Source: a virus
Length of the DNA stretch: 31,920 bases
Strand: one strand, 5' to 3'
IMG/VR virus record: IMGVR_UViG_3300028840_006884
Location: 1 to 31,920 of that record
Shown here piece by piece: positions 2,908 through 30,838 of this stretch. How positions within the stretch are numbered: the stretch's first letter is position 1; every line of letters starts with the position of its first letter. The translations under genes were made by a program, and so were the position numbers. The notes under the pieces were generated by a model that searched no databases, was not told the origin of the DNA, and was given only the letters and a program-made list of their open reading frames with translations.

Positions 2908-3846
2908 TTAAGCACTCATTTTTAGTTTTTGTGAATTTAATTTATTAATAGCTTTACGGACAGCATCGGCATGGGGATGCTCATCATCATTTATTGCATT
3001 GTGGACGGTGGACTTGCCGAGTCCCGTTTCCGCGGCGATTTCTTTTAATGAATATTCGCATGCTTCCTTAAGCTCTCTATTTGTCGGCTGAACGACTTCG
3101 TCATCTATTAATTTCTTACCGGCTTTCCTCGCTTCTTTCATTTTGGATTCAATATAAAAATCTATAGCCAATGGCGATTTTTGTAAGATGGCAATTCGCT
3201 CTCTGGCTTTTTGCGTGATAGATTCGCCGAATACACGCTTGATATACATCACTCTTTCTTTAAGCGTCATCCATCCGTTAGACTCATCGAGCTCGAGGCG
3301 TTGACTTCGCCAGTATGCTTCCTTTCTACTTTCGAGCTTAGCGGTTAATTCCTGATGACCAATTAATACAACGGAGAATAACGGCGATATACCTGCGAAC
3401 GACGACTCACGAATTTCTTTTAATGCTCGCAATGTATTAGCGTGTATGCGATGCGCTTCCTCAATTATTAGACATATTTTCATTTTATCCGTTACATGTC
3501 GGCGACCGATGATTTTTATTAATTGTCGGCTTCTTGCCTCTAAGTCACGGCGTGGCGGTTCATCGGATAAATCATATATCATGGCGTTCATTATTCCAGC
3601 GATGTTCAGCTTTTCTTTAAAATAATTTCTGACATAAACAAATATTATGTCATCCATTCCAGCGATGGATGAGTTGAATAAAATTGATTTGCCGGTGCCT
3701 ACAGCACCAGCGATACTTAGCATTTGGTTTTGTTCGATGGCATCGACAATATCTGCTTTGAAATTTTCGCAGGTCGGATTCCAGAACATTTTCATTTCGG
3801 ATAGTCCGAAGTGTTTTAATAAACTTTTTTGAATGGTTCTTCGCAT
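2908..3846 (-). CDS. MuB-like DNA transposition ATPase
   Basis: This 312-residue AAA ATPase has Walker A GAVGTGKS (47-54), Walker B ICLIIEEAH (124-132) and a sensor-like SVVLIGHQE (158-166). In Mu, MuB binds target DNA in an ATP-dependent way, delivers it to the MuA transpososome and enforces target immunity. The final 50 residues contain a helix-turn-helix (about 266-287, SLKEIAAETGLGKSTVHNAI), whereas Mu's own MuB has its HTH at the N-terminus. GAGGTAAC just before the ATG supports the start. It is encoded in the same leftward operon as the transposase, separated by Gam and small genes. Confidence 0.88.
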   Translation of the reverse strand: MRRTIQKSLLKHFGLSEMKMFWNPTCENFKADIVDAIEQNQMLSIAGAVGTGKSILFNSSIAGMDDIIFVYVRNYFKEKLNIAGIMNAMIYDLSDEPPRRDLEARSRQLIKIIGRRHVTDKMKICLIIEEAHRIHANTLRALKEIRESSFAGISPLFSVVLIGHQELTAKLESRKEAYWRSQRLELDESNGWMTLKERVMYIKRVFGESITQKARERIAILQKSPLAIDFYIESKMKEARKAGKKLIDDEVVQPTNRELKEACEYSLKEIAAETGLGKSTVHNAINDDEHPHADAVRKAINKLNSQKLKMSA

Positions 3847-4276: not shown

Positions 4277-4301
4277 TAGAACCTCATTAAAAGTTAAATA
4301 C

Positions 4302-4882: not shown

Positions 4883-4909
4883 AAAATTTTCTCCATAATT
4901 AATAAAATA

Positions 4910-4940
4910 GATTCCCGCTTAAAGCATGCGGGAATGACAA
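4910..4940. repeat. Interspersed repeat, family A
   Basis: The GATTCCCGCTT...GCGGGAATGACAA hairpin lies between the 71-residue gene and Gam. Confidence 0.85.
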
Positions 4941-5598: not shown

Positions 5599-5613
5599 TT
5601 AATATTATATTAT

Positions 5614-5643
5614 GGTTTCCCGCTTAAAACTGCGGGAATGACA
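5614..5643. repeat. Interspersed repeat, family A
   Basis: A variant copy (GGTTTCCCGCTT...TGCGGGAATGACA) just downstream of the transposase stop. Confidence 0.85.
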
Positions 5644-5653
5644 TCGAGTAATA

Positions 5654-7745: not shown

Positions 7746-7932
7746 ATAATATTAATCGGGCGACCCATAGCACTCCGCATAGCCATAAGTAGAATAGTGC
7801 TAGTGTAATAATTATTATTAATAGGCAGCCCCAGTTGATTCGCAATTCGCTTTTCGTTATTCGCTTTTTGCGAAATGGATTCCCGCTAAAAGCGTGCGGG
7901 AATGACAAAAAAGATTTATTCTGTTTCTTCAT
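7723..7932 (-). CDS. Small membrane protein, N-terminus uncertain
   Basis: The last 38 residues form one long or two short hydrophobic segments (WGCLLIIIITLALFYLWLCGVLWVARLIL). The first half is encoded by family A and F repeats, and the ATG overlaps the 3' end of the upstream coiled-coil gene. The true gene may start later at a non-ATG codon, or the frame may be decayed by repeat insertion. If real, it would be a small inner-membrane protein of the early operon with unknown function. Confidence 0.35.
   Translation of the reverse strand: MKKQNKSFLSFPHAFSGNPFRKKRITKSELRINWGCLLIIIITLALFYLWLCGVLWVARLILSLLTFNF
7841..7908. repeat. Family F run plus family A repeat
   Basis: TTCGCTTTTCGTTATTCGC-type units are followed by GGATTCCCGCTAAAAGCG and TGCGGGAATGACA. 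They overlap the doubtful N-terminal half of the small membrane protein. Confidence 0.8.
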
Positions 7933-9361: not shown

Positions 9362-9477
9362 AATTAATTATTAATTATGAATTATGAATAATTGTTTTCG
9401 CTTTTTGCAAAAATGGATTCCCGCTCAAAGCATGCGGGAATGACAAACAAGATTCTTCGCTTCGATCAGAATGACAG
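9362..9477. repeat. Cluster of repeat families C, A and B
   Basis: A C-type AATTATGA array (9362-9388), an A hairpin (9415-9445) and a B copy (9451-9477) stand in series. They occupy nearly all of the gap between two early genes. Confidence 0.85.
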
Positions 9478-11017: not shown

Positions 11018-11344
11018 AATAATTACAGAATTTATTTAATAATTTACTTTAGAATTTTGCCACCGTGTCACATTAAAATTTATGGATAATTATTAAGGAG
11101 CGGGTGCTCGCCTTTTTTATTTATGGATTCCCGCTTAAGGATTGCGGGAATGACAGATTGAGATTGCTTCGCAGTTCGCTTTTCGCTAATGGATTCCCGC
11201 TTAAGGATTGCGGGAATGACAGATTGAGATTACTTCGCAGTTCGCTTTTCGCCCTTCGCTGTTCGTTAAATGGATTCCCGCTTGAAGATTGCGGGAATGA
11301 CAGATTGAGATTGCCACGTCGCTTCGCTCCTCGCAATGACATAA
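11018..11344. repeat. Gene-free repeat block (three family A copies)
   Basis: No gene is supported. Family A hairpins occur at 11125-11156, 11191-11222 and 11272-11303. They are linked by GATTGAGAT plus family F-like TTCGCTTTTCGC stretches, so the unit is tandemly repeated with a period of about 66-80 bp. It ends in CGCTTCGCTCCTCGCAATGAC, another common interspersed-repeat type. A weak GAGC/GCTC hairpin followed by CC and six T (11099-11117) may end the repressor transcript. Confidence 0.85.
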
Positions 11345-14002: not shown

Positions 14003-14028
14003 TTTTTTTCTCCGTGAAAATTGTTTAT

Positions 14029-14060
14029 GGATTCCCGCTTGAAGATTGCGGGAATGACAA
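14029..14060. repeat. Interspersed repeat, family A
   Basis: A hairpin copy between TerL and portal. Confidence 0.85.
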
Positions 14061-15622: not shown

Positions 15623-15712
15623 TCAGATACCAATTTTTTATTTTCTTTTAATGTACGCAAAAATGGAAGGGTTTTGGACGATGTCGCGAAGCGACTTTCT
15701 ATTTGTAAAAAT

Positions 15713-15743
15713 GGATTTCCGCTAAGAGATCGCGGGAATGACA
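15713..15743. repeat. Interspersed repeat, family A (diverged)
   Basis: GGATTTCCGCTAAGAG then CGCGGGAATGACA, between TerS and TerL. Confidence 0.8.
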
Positions 15744-15751
15744 AAGAATAA

Positions 15752-17977: not shown

Positions 17978-18010
17978 CAATTATGAATTATGAATTGTGA
18001 ATTACGAATT
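17978..18010. repeat. Interspersed repeat, family C
   Basis: Three units. The last (GTGAATTACGAATTG) would supply the start codon and first residues of the next gene. Confidence 0.75.
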
Positions 18011-18389
18011 GATTGAAAAGAGATGTTTGAAAGTAGTGGCTTCGTGGGCATTCGGAATTAATATCGAATTAATCGAAGCAAGATACGATGAGTTTTCAGT
18101 TTTAGATCTTGTGAAGCTCGGGTTAGAAAGAAATTATTATTGCGGTTCTTTGTTTAATGAACTAGATATTACGAATAAAAAAGTTCTTTGTCAAAATGAA
18201 ATTCAAGGCACTAATGCCTTGGTGATAATCAAGAATAAAAACAACGAAGGCAGTCATGCGTTATACTGGACTGGGGAGCGTTTGTTAGACCCTGAAGGAG
18301 GCGGTTACGAGGAGGAGCTGGAAGGCATCAGAAATAAATTAATTAGTTGGATGCCGATAATTAATGTAACCGAAAATTTAGGAGAATAA
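17997..18389 (+). CDS. Hypothetical protein between decoration and capsid genes
   Basis: This 130-residue frame begins at a GTG inside a family C repeat. A TTG at residue 5 is an alternative, and neither has a ribosome binding site. The C-terminal part, NALVIIKNKNNEGSHALYWTGERLLDPEG (about 74-102), resembles the His...Asp part of papain-like/C39-type peptidases, but no matching N-terminal Cys motif is evident. It is either an inactive relative or an unrelated protein. It is 2 bp from the capsid gene. The function is unknown. Confidence 0.55.
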   Translation: MNYELIEKRCLKVVASWAFGINIELIEARYDEFSVLDLVKLGLERNYYCGSLFNELDITNKKVLCQNEIQGTNALVIIKNKNNEGSHALYWTGERLLDPEGGGYEEELEGIRNKLISWMPIINVTENLGE

Positions 18390-19479: not shown

Positions 19480-19728
19480 ATGAAATTCGATGTATTAAGA
19501 CCCTTGACTTTCGATGGCAAGAAATATTTGCCAGGTTCGGAAGTAGATTTTTCAAAAGCGAAAAAGGAAACAGCGGACGAACTTTTGAAATTAAAGGTAA
19601 TCGCTGTAAAAGAAAGTAAAGTGGATGCCGAAGCTAAGACAGAAGCGAAGGCAGAAGCGAAGACAGAAGACGGAAGTCAGAAGTCAGAATTAAAAACAAA
19701 TGATAAAAAAAATATGGGTGTGAAATGA
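19480..19728 (+). CDS. Small FluMu gp35-type head protein
   Basis: This 82-residue protein begins VLRPLTFDGKKYLPGSEVDFSKAKKETADELLKLKVI, the compact domain of FluMu-type small proteins located between capsid and tail genes. The second half is a low-complexity stretch of Lys, Glu and Ala (KTEAKAEAKTE-type repeats). The start has a strong AAGGAGG. The stop overlaps the next start (ATGA). It is probably a head or connector accessory protein. Confidence 0.65.
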   Translation: MKFDVLRPLTFDGKKYLPGSEVDFSKAKKETADELLKLKVIAVKESKVDAEAKTEAKAEAKTEDGSQKSELKTNDKKNMGVK

Positions 19729-21648: not shown

Positions 21649-21650
21649 TA

Positions 21651-21680
21651 ATTATGAATTAGGAATTATGAATTACGAAT
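21651..21680. repeat. Interspersed repeat, family C
   Basis: Three units end one base before the ATG of the next gene, so the repeat forms its whole leader. Confidence 0.8.
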
Positions 21681-21965
21681 ATGGCAGTAACGCAAAAAGA
21701 AATATTAAAGAAAATTGAATGTCTCGAAAAGAAGATGAAGACGACCGTGACTAATGGTAACAATAGAGAAGTCGAGATTGGCAAGGCAGTAACGCAAATA
21801 TGGAACGACATCGCTATAATTCGCGATATGAATAAGTTCTGGCAATTACTTAAAAGACGCAAGAAATTATTTATCGGCTTTGCATTATTCTTTTTGTTAC
21901 TCGGTAGTTCTGTGAGCATCGATTTTATTCTCGGGGCGATTCAAAAATTAATAAAATTATTATGA
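21681..21965 (+). CDS. Small coiled-coil membrane protein
   Basis: This 94-residue protein has an N-terminal coiled coil (EILKKIECLEKKMK), a basic stretch (LKRRKKLF) and one hydrophobic helix (FIGFALFFLLLGSSVSIDFILG, about 64-85). Together with the next two genes it looks like the start of a lysis cassette, and it may be a holin regulator or a holin itself (inference). Its leader is a family C repeat without a ribosome binding site. Confidence 0.6.
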   Translation: MAVTQKEILKKIECLEKKMKTTVTNGNNREVEIGKAVTQIWNDIAIIRDMNKFWQLLKRRKKLFIGFALFFLLLGSSVSIDFILGAIQKLIKLL

Positions 21966-21995: not shown

Positions 21996-22220
21996 ATGGC
22001 ACACGGATATTTTGAAAATGGGGATGGTAATAAAGACTTAAATAAATTGATAAGATTTATTTGTCTGCTAGTCGCTTTTATCGGCTTCATCGGAATGTTC
22101 TTGCTAGTATGGATGGAGCTCGAAATTCCTTGGTATTATTATGCCGTGGAAATATTATTCGTACTCGGTGCGGTCTATCCGGCAGGGATAAAAAAGATTA
22201 TCGAAAAATATAAAAAATAA
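21996..22220 (+). CDS. Holin-like protein, two membrane helices
   Basis: This 74-residue protein has two predicted membrane helices (FICLLVAFIGFIGMFLLVWM, about 22-41, and YAVEILFVLGAVYPAGI, about 49-65) and a short basic C-terminus (KKIIEKYKK). Size, topology and position two genes before the endolysin suggest a class II holin. No sequence family is recognised, so the call rests on context. The stop falls in a family C repeat. Confidence 0.6.
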   Translation: MAHGYFENGDGNKDLNKLIRFICLLVAFIGFIGMFLLVWMELEIPWYYYAVEILFVLGAVYPAGIKKIIEKYKK

Positions 22221-22250
22221 TTACGAATTAGGAATTATGAATTACGAATT
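22218..22250. repeat. Interspersed repeat, family C
   Basis: Three units. The last supplies the ATG and the MNYEL start of the lipoprotein gene. Confidence 0.8.
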
Positions 22251-22719
22251 AAGATATAGGATGACAATAATAATGTTAGCATTGTTATTAGTTGGATGTT
22301 GCGGGTCGGTGGAGCTGAACGAAAGAATTATCGAGGATGAAATTCATAAGGTGCCAGCCGATACTATTCTTATTACTCAATATATAGATACTTCCGGCAA
22401 TGCTGTAGATTATCTCGAGCAATTATATTTCTCACCTAATCCTAATTGCGATACTGCTGCAATCGTCGAACGTTATGCTAATATTAATTTATCGCTCAAG
22501 AAAAAAAATGCTGATTTATGGCTAAAATTCAACGGACTTAAAAGAAAATTAGAGTTTGAAATTAAAACTAAACCGAAGGAAATTATCGACCGTGATACAG
22601 TCATCAATACAAAATATATAGAGAAAAAAAGTTTTATCGACGATATAAAATGGTTCGTAATCATTGGTATTATTGGCTTTTCGTTATTCGCTTTTCGCTA
22701 TTGGCAGAAAAAAATATGA
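22237..22719 (+). CDS. Lipoprotein with C-terminal membrane helix (u-spanin-like)
   Basis: This 160-residue protein has a lipobox, ALLLVGC (cysteine at residue 21), an extended periplasmic segment with helical, charged character (LSLKKKNADLWLKFNGLKRKLEFEIKTK), and a C-terminal membrane helix (WFVIIGIIGFSLFAFRYW, about 138-155). An outer-membrane lipid anchor plus an inner-membrane anchor in one chain is the layout of unimolecular spanins, which fuse the two membranes in the last step of lysis. The ATG at 22237 lies in a repeat; Met-9 (22261) is an alternative start. The C-terminal helix overlaps a family F repeat. Confidence 0.6.
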   Translation: MNYELRYRMTIIMLALLLVGCCGSVELNERIIEDEIHKVPADTILITQYIDTSGNAVDYLEQLYFSPNPNCDTAAIVERYANINLSLKKKNADLWLKFNGLKRKLEFEIKTKPKEIIDRDTVINTKYIEKKSFIDDIKWFVIIGIIGFSLFAFRYWQKKI

Positions 22720-22738: not shown

Positions 22739-23239
22739 AAATTATTTAAGAGTGCTTTCGAATTTATGCTCGGGAATGAAGGTAGCTATTCGAATGATCC
22801 AAACGATAGAGGCGGGCAAACTATTTATGGCATCACGGTATTTTATCATCCTATCTGGTTTTATCGTGTTTATAAATTTTATCGGAAAAATTTATTAGTC
22901 AAAGCGATTGAAATCGCTAAGGAATTTTATTATAAAAAGTTTTGGAATAAATTATACGAAGAAATCATTCATCCCAAATTAGCTATTCGTCTATTCGATG
23001 TTAGTGTGAACATCGGTAAGAAGCGGGCAATAAAGATTCTTCAACGCATCGTCAATGTTCGCGAGGATGGGATATTCGGTACTATTACTCTACACGCGGT
23101 TAATTGTTACCCGTTCAGTTTATATTCCGAATTTATTATGGCACTAGCAAAATATTATGAAAGCAGACGCGGGTTCAAAAAGTTTGGCAAGGGATGGATG
23201 ACACGACTCTATAAAACAATTACGAATTACGAATTATGA
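22730..23239 (+). CDS. GH108 endolysin (N-acetylmuramidase type)
   Basis: This 169-residue protein shows the GH108 signature NEGSYSNDPNDRGGQTIYGIT (residues 16-36), with E17 as the proposed catalytic acid. A peptidoglycan-binding region typical of this family follows (LAIRLFDVSVNIGKKRAIKILQRIVNVREDGIFGTIT, about 84-120). It cleaves the glycan backbone of the cell wall at lysis. There is no signal peptide, so it depends on a holin. The last residues (TNYEL) are encoded by a family C repeat. Confidence 0.9.
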   Translation: MNDKLFKSAFEFMLGNEGSYSNDPNDRGGQTIYGITVFYHPIWFYRVYKFYRKNLLVKAIEIAKEFYYKKFWNKLYEEIIHPKLAIRLFDVSVNIGKKRAIKILQRIVNVREDGIFGTITLHAVNCYPFSLYSEFIMALAKYYESRRGFKKFGKGWMTRLYKTITNYEL

Positions 23240-23251
23240 ATTACGAATTTT
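23216..23251. repeat. Interspersed repeat, family C
   Basis: Four units. They encode the endolysin C-terminus and its stop. Confidence 0.8.
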
Positions 23252-23826: not shown

Positions 23827-23897
23827 ACAATTACCAATTAGGAATTATGAATTATGAAATATTAATTCGTAATTCCTAATTATTCATTCATAATTAA
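23827..23897. repeat. Family C inverted pair (long hairpin)
   Basis: ATTAGGAATTATGAATTA and, downstream, TAATTCGTAATTCCTAAT pair over 18 bp with one mismatch. It lies between tube and chaperone genes and could attenuate transcription or protect the abundant tube mRNA. Confidence 0.75.
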
Positions 23898-23912: not shown

Positions 23913-24212
23913 ATGTCAAATCAAAATATGCAAAAGAAATATCAATTACTCGATGATGTGCATCGTGTAGGTGTAGCGCCGACCATAGCCAAGATTAAAG
24001 AGCTTAAAGAGTTCGGCTTGGATTGGGAAGAGCAAGGGAAGCTCGGTGCATCATGGAATAAGGTTATCACTAATCCCGATGAATGCTCTAAATTAACAGC
24101 GATATTATTTGATAAGGGTATATCGCCAGAGGAAGCACTCGATGCTAATCTGAAAGAAATATTTAAAGGTCTAACGGATTTTTTAGCCAGTGCCGGGCTG
24201 CTTTTAACGTAG
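23913..24212 (+). CDS. Tail assembly chaperone, short form (G-like)
   Basis: This 99-residue protein is mostly helical (TIAKIKELKEFGLDWEEQG and SKLTAILFDKGISPEEALDANLKEIFKGLTDFLASAGLLLT). Its position between tail tube and tape measure, its length and the frameshift signal at its end identify it as the short tail assembly chaperone. It would coat the tape measure during tail assembly and be absent from the virion. Confidence 0.75.
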   Translation: MSNQNMQKKYQLLDDVHRVGVAPTIAKIKELKEFGLDWEEQGKLGASWNKVITNPDECSKLTAILFDKGISPEEALDANLKEIFKGLTDFLASAGLLLT

Positions 24213-24460
24213 CCCGCGATTTCGAAGATTGGGAATGTGAGGATGACGATATCTATAGCTCTTATGCCAGTGCATTAGAAGGGAAGCATGGCAAGAAATA
24301 CGAACTAGATTTCCTAACTCATGCAGCTGCTGAATCTATTCACGATGTGGAGAGAATCGAAAATATGCCTTTAGATAAATTAATACTTCATTTACAATTA
24401 AATAAATTTAGTAGATGGGTCTCGGAAAAAGCGGCGAAGGTAATCGCGAAAAGAAAATAA
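23913..24460 (+). CDS. Tail assembly chaperone, frameshifted long form (GT-like)
   Basis: A -1 slip at T TTT TTA (24179-24185) joins the short form to a frame that is open from 24167 to the stop at 24458-24460. The added part begins SQCRAAFNVARDFEDWECEDDD and ends KAAKVIAKRK, with a helical, acidic then basic composition. That second frame has no early ATG and no ribosome binding site, so frameshifting is the natural way to express it. The long form in lambda-type tails binds the tape measure and recruits tube subunits. The slip itself is predicted, not shown. Confidence 0.75.
24179..24216 (+). promoter_or_regulatory. Programmed -1 frameshift signal
   Basis: The heptamer T TTT TTA is in the zero frame, the same type as the HIV-1 slip site. 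After 8 nt comes a 6-bp perfect stem, CGGGCT (24194-24199) with AGCCCG (24211-24216), over an 11-nt loop. The zero-frame stop is at 24210-24212, inside the stem. Confidence 0.75.
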
Positions 24461-24461
24461 A

Positions 24462-24535
24462 TAATTACGAATTAGGAATTATGAATTAGGATATAATATA
24501 ATTCGTAATTGTAAGATTCGTAATTCATAATTGAC
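24462..24535. repeat. Family C inverted pair (hairpin)
   Basis: AATTACGAATTAGGAATTAT-type units are followed by inverted ATTCGTAATT copies. With the similar pair at 23827-23897 it brackets the chaperone gene. It also forms the leader of the tape measure gene, which has no ribosome binding site. Confidence 0.75.
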
Positions 24536-27581: not shown

Positions 27582-27597
27582 TTATTAAATTTAAAAT

Positions 27598-27630
27598 AGA
27601 TTCCCGCTTAAGGATTGCGGGAATGACAAA
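27598..27630. repeat. Interspersed repeat, family A
   Basis: A hairpin copy between two tail genes, and the only A copy in the rightward late region. Confidence 0.85.
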
Positions 27631-28344: not shown

Positions 28345-28500
28345 ATTATCAATTACGAATTATGAATTATGAATTACGAATTTTCTGGCATTGTCATTCT
28401 GAACGAGCCCTTCGCTTTGCTCAAGGGTAAACTTAGCGAGTGAAGAATCCCAATGTAAATTATAATAGTTAAAAGTTAAATGTTAAATGTTAAATTTTAT
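28345..28500. repeat. Repeat cluster: families C, B variant and D
   Basis: C units (28345-28380), a long B relative (28392-28450; TGTCATTCTGAACGAG ... GTGAAGAATCC) and D-type GTTAAATGTTAAATG units (28467-28494) fill the gap before the large fibre gene. Confidence 0.85.
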
Positions 28501-28515
28501 AGGAGAAGAAAAATT

Positions 28516-30186
28516 ATGAAGAAGTTAATTTTTGTAAGCATTATGATGCTTATGTTTTTTAGTGGGCTCTACGCCCAAACACCCGCCAGCGGTTATACGG
28601 CGAATCTAAGCTTAAAGAAGTATCCATCTAATGCGACTGGCATCGCTGACTCACTCAACTGGAATTGGGACCGAGTCGACCAATTCTGGCGAAGAAATTA
28701 TGACTCATTATTAGCCCATCGCAGCGAGTTAAATATTCTTGGCGCTCAATGGCAAACGCTCGGTAGTAATATCTTTTATAATACCGGCAACGTTGGGATT
28801 GGAACGAATACGCCACTCGCTAAATTACATGTTTATTATGGCACTTCGGGTGCGCCTACTGCTACATACTCACATACTATAATTGAGAATAGCAATTATA
28901 CGGGTCTGCAATTTAAGAGTCCGAATACAGTAGGCAATAGAATCTATTACAGCGACCCCGAGAATGCTAATGCCGGGATATTCGAATATTACCATCCTTC
29001 AGATATTTTCCTTTGGTCTATTCAAGGTACCGAAAGAATGCGATTAAGCGCCACAGGTCTAGGCATCGGTGTCTCCCCTTCGTATAAACTAGATGTATTA
29101 GGCGATATAAACTTCACCGGCACTTTAAGGAAAAGTGGAACTCCTTTTAAGGAAGGGCTATGGTCATTGAACGGAAGCGATGTCTATTATAACGGTGGGA
29201 ATGTTGGAATAGGAACAAGTACGCCAAATTATAAATTAGATATTAATGGTAAAATAGGGATAGATGGACAACAAACAGTATATAATGCAGATGCTGAAGA
29301 TGGTATTACAGGAACTATCTATATTGGTGATGGAGGAGGGAGCCTTACTCATACAGTAGATTCAGAAGCATATTATAATATTGCTATGGGTTTATCCGCA
29401 GGATATTTAATTACAACAGGTTATGCTAATACTTTTATTGGTCATCAAGCGGGAGCTAGTACTACAACAGGTTATAGTAATACTCTTATTGGTTATCAAG
29501 TAGGAATTAATAATATATCAGGATTATATAATTCATTTTTAGGTTATCAGACAGGTCTTAATAATACAATAGGTTATGCTAATACTTTTATTGGTTATCA
29601 AGCAGGTTATTCTAATATTGATGGTGCTATTAATTCTTTTTTTGGTTATCAAGCAGGATTTTCTAGTACAGCAACAAATGGTAATTCATTTTTTGGACAT
29701 CAAACGGGTTATAATACTACAGGAGGAAGTAATTCCTTTTTTGGTAATACTACTGGGTTTTCTAATACTACAGGAATTGCTAATTCATTTTTTGGTTATG
29801 AAACAGGTTATACTAATACTATTGGTTTAGGAAATACTTTTATTGGCTATAGAGCAGGCAATGGTATAACCACAGGTAACAATAACACAATTATTGGTGC
29901 AAATGTTACAGGTTTATCTGCGAGTTTGAGTAACAATGTAATTATAGCTGATGGTACAGGAAATCAAAGAATAAGAATATTAAGTAATGGTGATGTAGGC
30001 ATAGGAACAGCAACTCCATCCGAGAAATTAACAGTTGAATGGGCAGCTGGTGTAGATGCTGGTTTCTTCCGTGGCGTGACCGACCCCGATATAACAGGAA
30101 TATTTACGCGTAACCCCAACGGAGTGCTTTATTATGTATGGGTAGCAGCGGGTGGTAATTTGACGACTAGTACAACAAAACCGTAG
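28516..30186 (+). CDS. Large tail fibre with signal peptide and GYQ repeats
   Basis: The ATG at 28516 was chosen for AGGAGAAG upstream. This 556-residue protein has a signal peptide (KKLIFVSIMMLMFFSGLYAQ), then a domain with NWNWDRVDQFWRRNYDSLLAHR. Three VGIGT-x-TP motifs follow (about 93, 230 and 494). Residues about 300-465 are nine or ten repeats of 15-19 residues of the type NTFIGYQAGYSNTTG, probably a trimeric beta structure. The repeat-coding part is more AT-rich than the flanks. The C-terminus (VTDPDITGIFTRNPNGVLYYVWV) is compact and fibre-tip-like. It is probably the receptor-binding fibre. Confidence 0.75.
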   Translation: MKKLIFVSIMMLMFFSGLYAQTPASGYTANLSLKKYPSNATGIADSLNWNWDRVDQFWRRNYDSLLAHRSELNILGAQWQTLGSNIFYNTGNVGIGTNTPLAKLHVYYGTSGAPTATYSHTIIENSNYTGLQFKSPNTVGNRIYYSDPENANAGIFEYYHPSDIFLWSIQGTERMRLSATGLGIGVSPSYKLDVLGDINFTGTLRKSGTPFKEGLWSLNGSDVYYNGGNVGIGTSTPNYKLDINGKIGIDGQQTVYNADAEDGITGTIYIGDGGGSLTHTVDSEAYYNIAMGLSAGYLITTGYANTFIGHQAGASTTTGYSNTLIGYQVGINNISGLYNSFLGYQTGLNNTIGYANTFIGYQAGYSNIDGAINSFFGYQAGFSSTATNGNSFFGHQTGYNTTGGSNSFFGNTTGFSNTTGIANSFFGYETGYTNTIGLGNTFIGYRAGNGITTGNNNTIIGANVTGLSASLSNNVIIADGTGNQRIRILSNGDVGIGTATPSEKLTVEWAAGVDAGFFRGVTDPDITGIFTRNPNGVLYYVWVAAGGNLTTSTTKP

Positions 30187-30469: not shown

Positions 30470-30838
30470 ATGTTCAAAAAATTAATTTTAGTTTTTGTTT
30501 TATTAGCGAGTTCATTGTTCGCCCAAAAGGTCAATACTATGGCTTGCGAGGATTGGGTCGATAGTGTATACGCGAGTAAAGCGTGGGTGAATGCTTCATT
30601 CGTGAAAGCGGATTATGTTTTTAGCGATGACTACGAATTGCTTCCTATATCCGAGCATAGCGAAGCGATGTGGAGCGATGGTAAATTGCCCGGTGTTAAA
30701 GCGAATGGCACACTCGGAATACTCGAGGAGCTGGAGGTCGCTCATATTTATATCGCCGAGTTAGAAGAGCGGTTAAAGAAATTGGAAGTATTAATTACGA
30801 ATTATGAATTAGGAATTAACAATTGTAATAGAGAGTAA
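30470..30838 (+). CDS. Stand-alone fibre C-terminal (S74-adjacent) domain protein
   Basis: The ATG at 30470 has GGAGG 5 nt upstream. This 122-residue protein has a signal peptide (FKKLILVFVLLASSLFAQ). Residues about 46-110, VKADYVFSDDYELLPISEH ... GKLPGVKANG ... IYIAELEERLKKLE, match the conserved end that in Bacteroidota fibre-like proteins lies next to or in place of the S74 chaperone (DYxLxPLxExE ... HLPGxxSA ... LYxIELxxxxxxLE). Here it is a separate small secreted protein. The tail (TNYELG) is encoded by a family C repeat. It may trimerise or cap the fibre (inference). Confidence 0.65.
   Translation: MFKKLILVFVLLASSLFAQKVNTMACEDWVDSVYASKAWVNASFVKADYVFSDDYELLPISEHSEAMWSDGKLPGVKANGTLGILEELEVAHIYIAELEERLKKLEVLITNYELGINNCNRE
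30793..30822. repeat. Interspersed repeat, family C, inside a gene
   Basis: AATTACGAATTATGAATTAGG-type units are in frame in the fibre C-terminal-domain gene and read as ITNYELGIN. Confidence 0.75.

Follow-up and report, generated by a model that had tools for sequence, protein, structure and literature searches.

A candidate programmed −1 frameshift site at the probable G/T tail chaperone genes of a divergent Mu-like phage

Introduction

Phage lambda makes the tail assembly chaperones G and GT, reportedly described by Levin, Hendrix and Casjens in 1993, and its slip heptamer is G GGA AAG. Most ribosomes on the lambda message yield G and few yield GT; the G part binds the tape-measure protein, and T recruits tube subunits (PMC5009743). 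Frameshifted G/GT genes are an ordinary, widespread and expected feature of long-tailed phages, and in the D3112 group of Mu-like Pseudomonas aeruginosa phages the same gene pair carries T TTT TTC (PMC4378225). The published rules for bacterial −1 stimulators describe structures of 17–140 nt that begin 4–10 nt past the motif with a G-C first pair, followed by at least 3 more pairs, and that have an unfolding energy of at least 7.6 kcal/mol (PMC4066793).

Here we analyzed a gene pair of this kind in the DNA of a virus (IMG/VR virus record IMGVR_UViG_3300028840_006884, positions 1 to 31,920; this whole stretch of 31,920 nucleotides is referred to as the window). The locus resembles that of lambda in its zero-frame G, its start-less −1 T frame, the heptamer near the end of G and the position directly upstream of the tape-measure gene; it differs in its heptamer (T TTT TTA versus G GGA AAG), in its strong downstream hairpin and in showing no detectable sequence similarity. 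In the D3112 group, 43 codons separate the heptamer from the zero-frame stop, whereas in the window the distance is 8 codons and a hairpin accompanies the heptamer. HIV-1 gag-pol has the identical U UUU UUA, also followed by a stem, in an unrelated gene read by an unrelated ribosome; the slip motif alone is in common, and the "HIV-1 type" label given by an earlier, sequence-only reading of this DNA is right for the heptamer but extends no further than that motif. We conclude, with a probability of roughly 0.88, that programmed −1 frameshifting lets one gene give two tail assembly chaperones, one G-like (99 aa) and the other GT-like (182 aa); this reading supplies the absent G/GT annotation in a divergent Mu-like phage.

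Slip site, spacer and downstream hairpin

The features of the locus are listed in Table 1. The zero frame of the G-like ORF ends ACG GAT TTT TTA GCC AGT GCC GGG CTG CTT TTA ACG TAG, and base 24179 is the third base of the GAT codon, which gives T TTT TTA the register needed for tandem −1 slippage of the X XXY YYZ type. Both this register and the 8-nt spacer had been claimed by the sequence-only reading, and both agree with what we read directly. The arms of the predicted hairpin, CGGGCUGC (24194–24201) and GUAGCCCG (24209–24216), enclose the loop UUUUAAC, and the zero-frame stop TAG (24210–24212) lies inside the 3′ arm. A perfect stem of 6 bp had been proposed here; the stem is present, but it comprises 8 bp including one G-U pair. 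T TTT TTA is the only canonical in-register slip site within the G/T overlap; other slip-site candidates there were checked and discarded.

Table 1 Features of the G/T locus and of the repeats and relatives discussed (positions in the window unless a relative is named).
Feature	Position	Strand	Remarks
Probable major tail (tube) protein, 183 aa	23275–23826	+	By position only, flanked by endolysin and chaperone genes
G-like zero-frame product, 99 aa	23913–24212	+	ORF list; AGGGG ribosome-binding site upstream; coding-like codon usage
T-like −1 open frame	24167–24460	+	97 codons to 24457, stop TAA 24458–24460; gene-like codon usage
Slippery heptamer T TTT TTA	24179–24185	+	In register; read directly from sequence
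Spacer, 8 nt	24186–24193	+	Read directly
Stimulatory hairpin (predicted)	24194–24216	+	8 bp incl. one G-U, 7-nt loop, −13.4 kcal/mol
AATTAYG repeat, intergenic	24463–24496	.	Family D2/D3; begins three bases after T stop
Tape-measure protein, 548 aa	24541–26187	+	PHROG phrog_339 E 1.1e-7, phrog_167 E 1.2e-6
7-base repeat examples	2610–2643, 17979–18012, 21650–21683, 22219–22252, 23218–23251, 23829–23862, 24463–24496, 28351–28384, 30786–30819		
Palindromic element copies	1571–1613, 4898–4940, 5602–5644, 7866–7908, 9404–9446, 11114–11303 (three copies), 14018–14060, 15702–15744, 27587–27629		
A AAA AAG regions in relatives	L005 4880–5010; L006 8160–8290; L009 13581–13711; L025 8929–9059; L027 13855–13985		

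With a length of 23 nt, a start 8 nt past the motif, a closing C-G pair and a computed fold of −13.4 kcal/mol, the hairpin falls comfortably within the bacterial stimulator rules (PMC4066793), and its stability per nucleotide (0.58 kcal/mol) compares with 0.45 for IS3-family hairpins. Pairing of the loop with downstream sequence (a pseudoknot) was sought and none was found. Upstream, the Shine-Dalgarno-like AAAGG at 24165–24169 was considered as a stimulator and dropped, its pairing being unremarkable; no strong stimulator of this type was found upstream of the slip site, where 22% of random stretches pair equally well.

The heptamer is not a favored one in E. coli. There, U UUU UUA is far less slippery than A AAA AAG (PMC5009743), though the host here may differ; it ranks as a weak slip motif next to A AAA AAG or U UUU UUY (PMC5009743, PMC4066793), and the list of efficient bacterial heptamers omits it (PMC4066793). 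To call the signal "textbook", as had been done, was therefore an overstatement. Because U UUU UUA is weak in E. coli, the hairpin is presumably needed for slippage at this site. That a chaperone pair without detectable sequence relatives relies on this combination of an E. coli-weak heptamer and a strong hairpin is a tentative proposal that we hold to be unlikely; if the site were efficient in its own host, the Phe/Leu tRNAs or ribosomes of that host would follow slip rules unlike those of E. coli. The locus adds a U UUU UUA and hairpin case to a class dominated by A-rich heptamers.

Chance expectation within the window

We compared these features with their background frequencies. T TTT TTA occurs 53 times on the two strands of the window, which is A/T-rich, versus 35 expected from shuffles, and the genes of the window contain 56 in-register X XXY YYZ heptamers of any kind. 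Three of the 56 (at 18374, 19707 and 24179) are followed by a −1 frame that stays open for more than 40 codons, and a single one, that at 24179, leads into a long −1 frame without its own start. The heptamer alone is not beyond chance; it is the conjunction of features that is telling. A comparably strong stem after a 5–9 nt spacer is found at 0.4–0.6% of positions, and a fold as stable as that of the hairpin region is reached by 0.26% of 35-nt windows; in a shuffle test, the 55 nt after the heptamer gave an unremarkable folding z-score (−1.14).

The heptamers A AAT TTA (18374–18380) and A AAA AAT (19707–19713) are located near gene ends, and the −1 frame into which each leads is that of the next gene. 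Both are probably due to chance, the next gene starting by itself a few codons on.

The same arrangement could arise from an indel in the T run, whether introduced in sequencing or assembly or by the real loss of one base, as one more T would create a single 182-codon ORF in which no frameshift is needed. The break does coincide with a stretch of six T in a virus contig, and the collections searched contained no second copy or relative with which this run could be compared. A random indel, however, would not bring a C-G-closed hairpin 8 nt further on, among the most stable 0.3% of the window, nor would it hit the one gene position at which long-tailed phages frameshift, and we consider this explanation quite improbable. 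Six T are, by general knowledge, short for efficient slippage of RNA polymerase, in which a hairpin at ribosomal spacing would moreover have no role; that a share of the mRNAs gains an extra U in this way is very improbable, even though bacterial polymerases are known to slip on homopolymer runs, which would give the same fusion protein (reviewed in PMC5009743).

Coding character of the G and T frames

The G frame has a codon-usage score of 0.27. Its 99-aa product matched only one PHROG, phrog_20149, weakly (E 9e-4; function unknown), and structure prediction returned an all-helical model of low confidence (pLDDT 49.5). Neither G nor T matched a Pfam or NCBIfam family. Read after the slip, the T part spans 24185–24457, and the predicted GT fusion of 182 aa consists of 91 residues of G and 91 of T. 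Under a model learned from the other genes, codon usage in the −1 frame scored 0.158 bits per codon, exceeding all 370 non-coding frames tested (best, 0.150), with coding pieces of the same length averaging 0.20.

No ATG, GTG or TTG occurs among the first 60 of the 97 codons in the −1 frame, and the earliest starts, GTG at 24347 (codon 61) followed by ATG at 24365, come too late for a domain. Since GTG 24347 is the first start, the −1 frame is not translatable alone as a complete protein. It had been described as about 98 codons from 24167 lacking a start of its own: the frame is indeed open over 24167–24457 and start-less through its first 60 codons, but it counts 97 codons and contains the late GTG and ATG. 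Among the 44 stretches open for at least 97 codons, an early start is absent only from the T frame and its antisense stretch. The overlap of the G stop with the T frame, as seen in coupled genes, would fit separate translation of T by internal initiation or re-initiation; with no start codon across those first 60 codons, this route is extremely unlikely.

Genomic position and searches for relatives

The window phage is Mu-like: the window encodes a transposase (phrog_310), a MuB-like protein (phrog_296), a terminase and a major head protein (phrog_1005), and its portal corresponds to Pfam Portal_Mu (E 4e-46). The G/T pair is situated directly upstream of the tape-measure gene and downstream of the presumed tail-tube gene, the latter assigned by position, whose product gave no family, PDB or phage match. 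In a record search, the tape-measure protein showed similarity to its counterpart in Flavobacterium phage 11b (E 6e-10). No AATTAYG repeat separates G from T; in the window phage such repeats often directly follow gene stops.

The viral contigs searched contained no relatives of G, the tail tube, the tape measure, the distal-tail protein, the transposase or the endolysin, and the annotated phages contained no credible relative of G, T, the GT fusion or the tube. No relative of the GT fusion was found in 99 genomes of one bacterial phylum, in a search run without a positive control.

Comparison with Mu-like relatives sharing the capsid gene

The capsid protein is 51–55% identical to its nearest relatives, which belong to Mu-like phages in several contigs and genomes, and 48% identical to that of P. 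aeruginosa B3-type phages. The tail genes of these capsid-sharing relatives show no sequence homology to those of the window, and the G proteins could not be aligned. We ran a blind rule that searches for a G/−1 overlap identically on the window and on the relatives. Such an overlap was detected right before a tape-measure-sized gene in three of them (L010, L025 and L027), and Flavobacterium phage 11b also has one, unannotated, immediately ahead of its tape-measure gene; false matches elsewhere were few (e.g., window 29788 in the tail-fibre gene, where the long −1 frame is the real gene). DNA alignment revealed an A AAA AAG that is invariant at the end of the G-like gene in five relatives (L005, L006, L009, L025 and L027), with variable flanks. 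These five have, like the window, a G/T-like −1 overlap before a tape-measure-sized gene; they differ from it in using A AAA AAG (T TTT TTA in the window) and in G proteins that are not alignable with that of the window. Judged by sequence, −1 frameshifting at the G/T gene is common among the head-module relatives, and the window phage has a different tail module and signal. The pattern points to an exchange of the tail module in which a frameshift was retained at this place, but under another signal.

In the same five phages, the protein read in the −1 frame after A AAA AAG is conserved and carries a cysteine-rich NCRQC motif; two of the five lie in MAGs labelled Proteobacteria/Deltaproteobacteria. 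In Flavobacterium phage 11b (L034, NC_006356.2), PHG11b_38 and PHG11b_39 (3149–3813) form the unannotated −1 overlap, which is located at an A9 run; the tape-measure gene follows immediately.

Proposed mechanism

The position before the tape-measure gene, the same architecture in Mu-like relatives and the start-less, coding-like −1 frame together support the G and GT-like products that the sequence-only reading had predicted, and a chaperone function would follow from this position and architecture. The heptamer in register, the hairpin, the −1 frame, the gene position and the architecture of the relatives can be seen in the DNA, whereas slippage and its rate are inferred. The majority of ribosomes would read the zero frame to the TAG at 24210 and release the 99-aa G-like chaperone. 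A minority would stall at the hairpin while UUU occupies the P site and UUA the A site; the two tRNAs would shift back by one base to pair with UUU UUU, and reading would continue in the −1 frame to 24460, giving the 182-aa GT-like fusion. By analogy with lambda, the G part may coat the tape-measure protein encoded next while the T part recruits tail-tube subunits, and a low slip rate would match the roughly 30:1 ratio of the lambda type. The finding leaves the current view of tail assembly unchanged.

Repeats and other features of the window

Intergenic space in phage genomes is normally minimal. The window nevertheless contains a 7-base repeat (AATTATG/AATTACG/AATTAGG) in about 20 arrays or fragments, mainly intergenic and often directly after stops, together with 11 copies of a palindromic element, ATGGATTCCCGCTT...GCGGGAATGACA, that lie mostly between genes (Table 1). 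Further repeat families comprise AGTTAAA arrays, GATTCTTCGCTTCGCTCAGAATGACA, and CCCCTCTCTTAAAAAGAGAGGGG at 4297, 16417 and 19412. Several repeat families of the bacterial-chromosome kind are unusual in a Mu-like phage. A tail-fibre-like gene (29358–29858) contains 51-base imperfect repeats that encode units of the NTFIGYQAG type.
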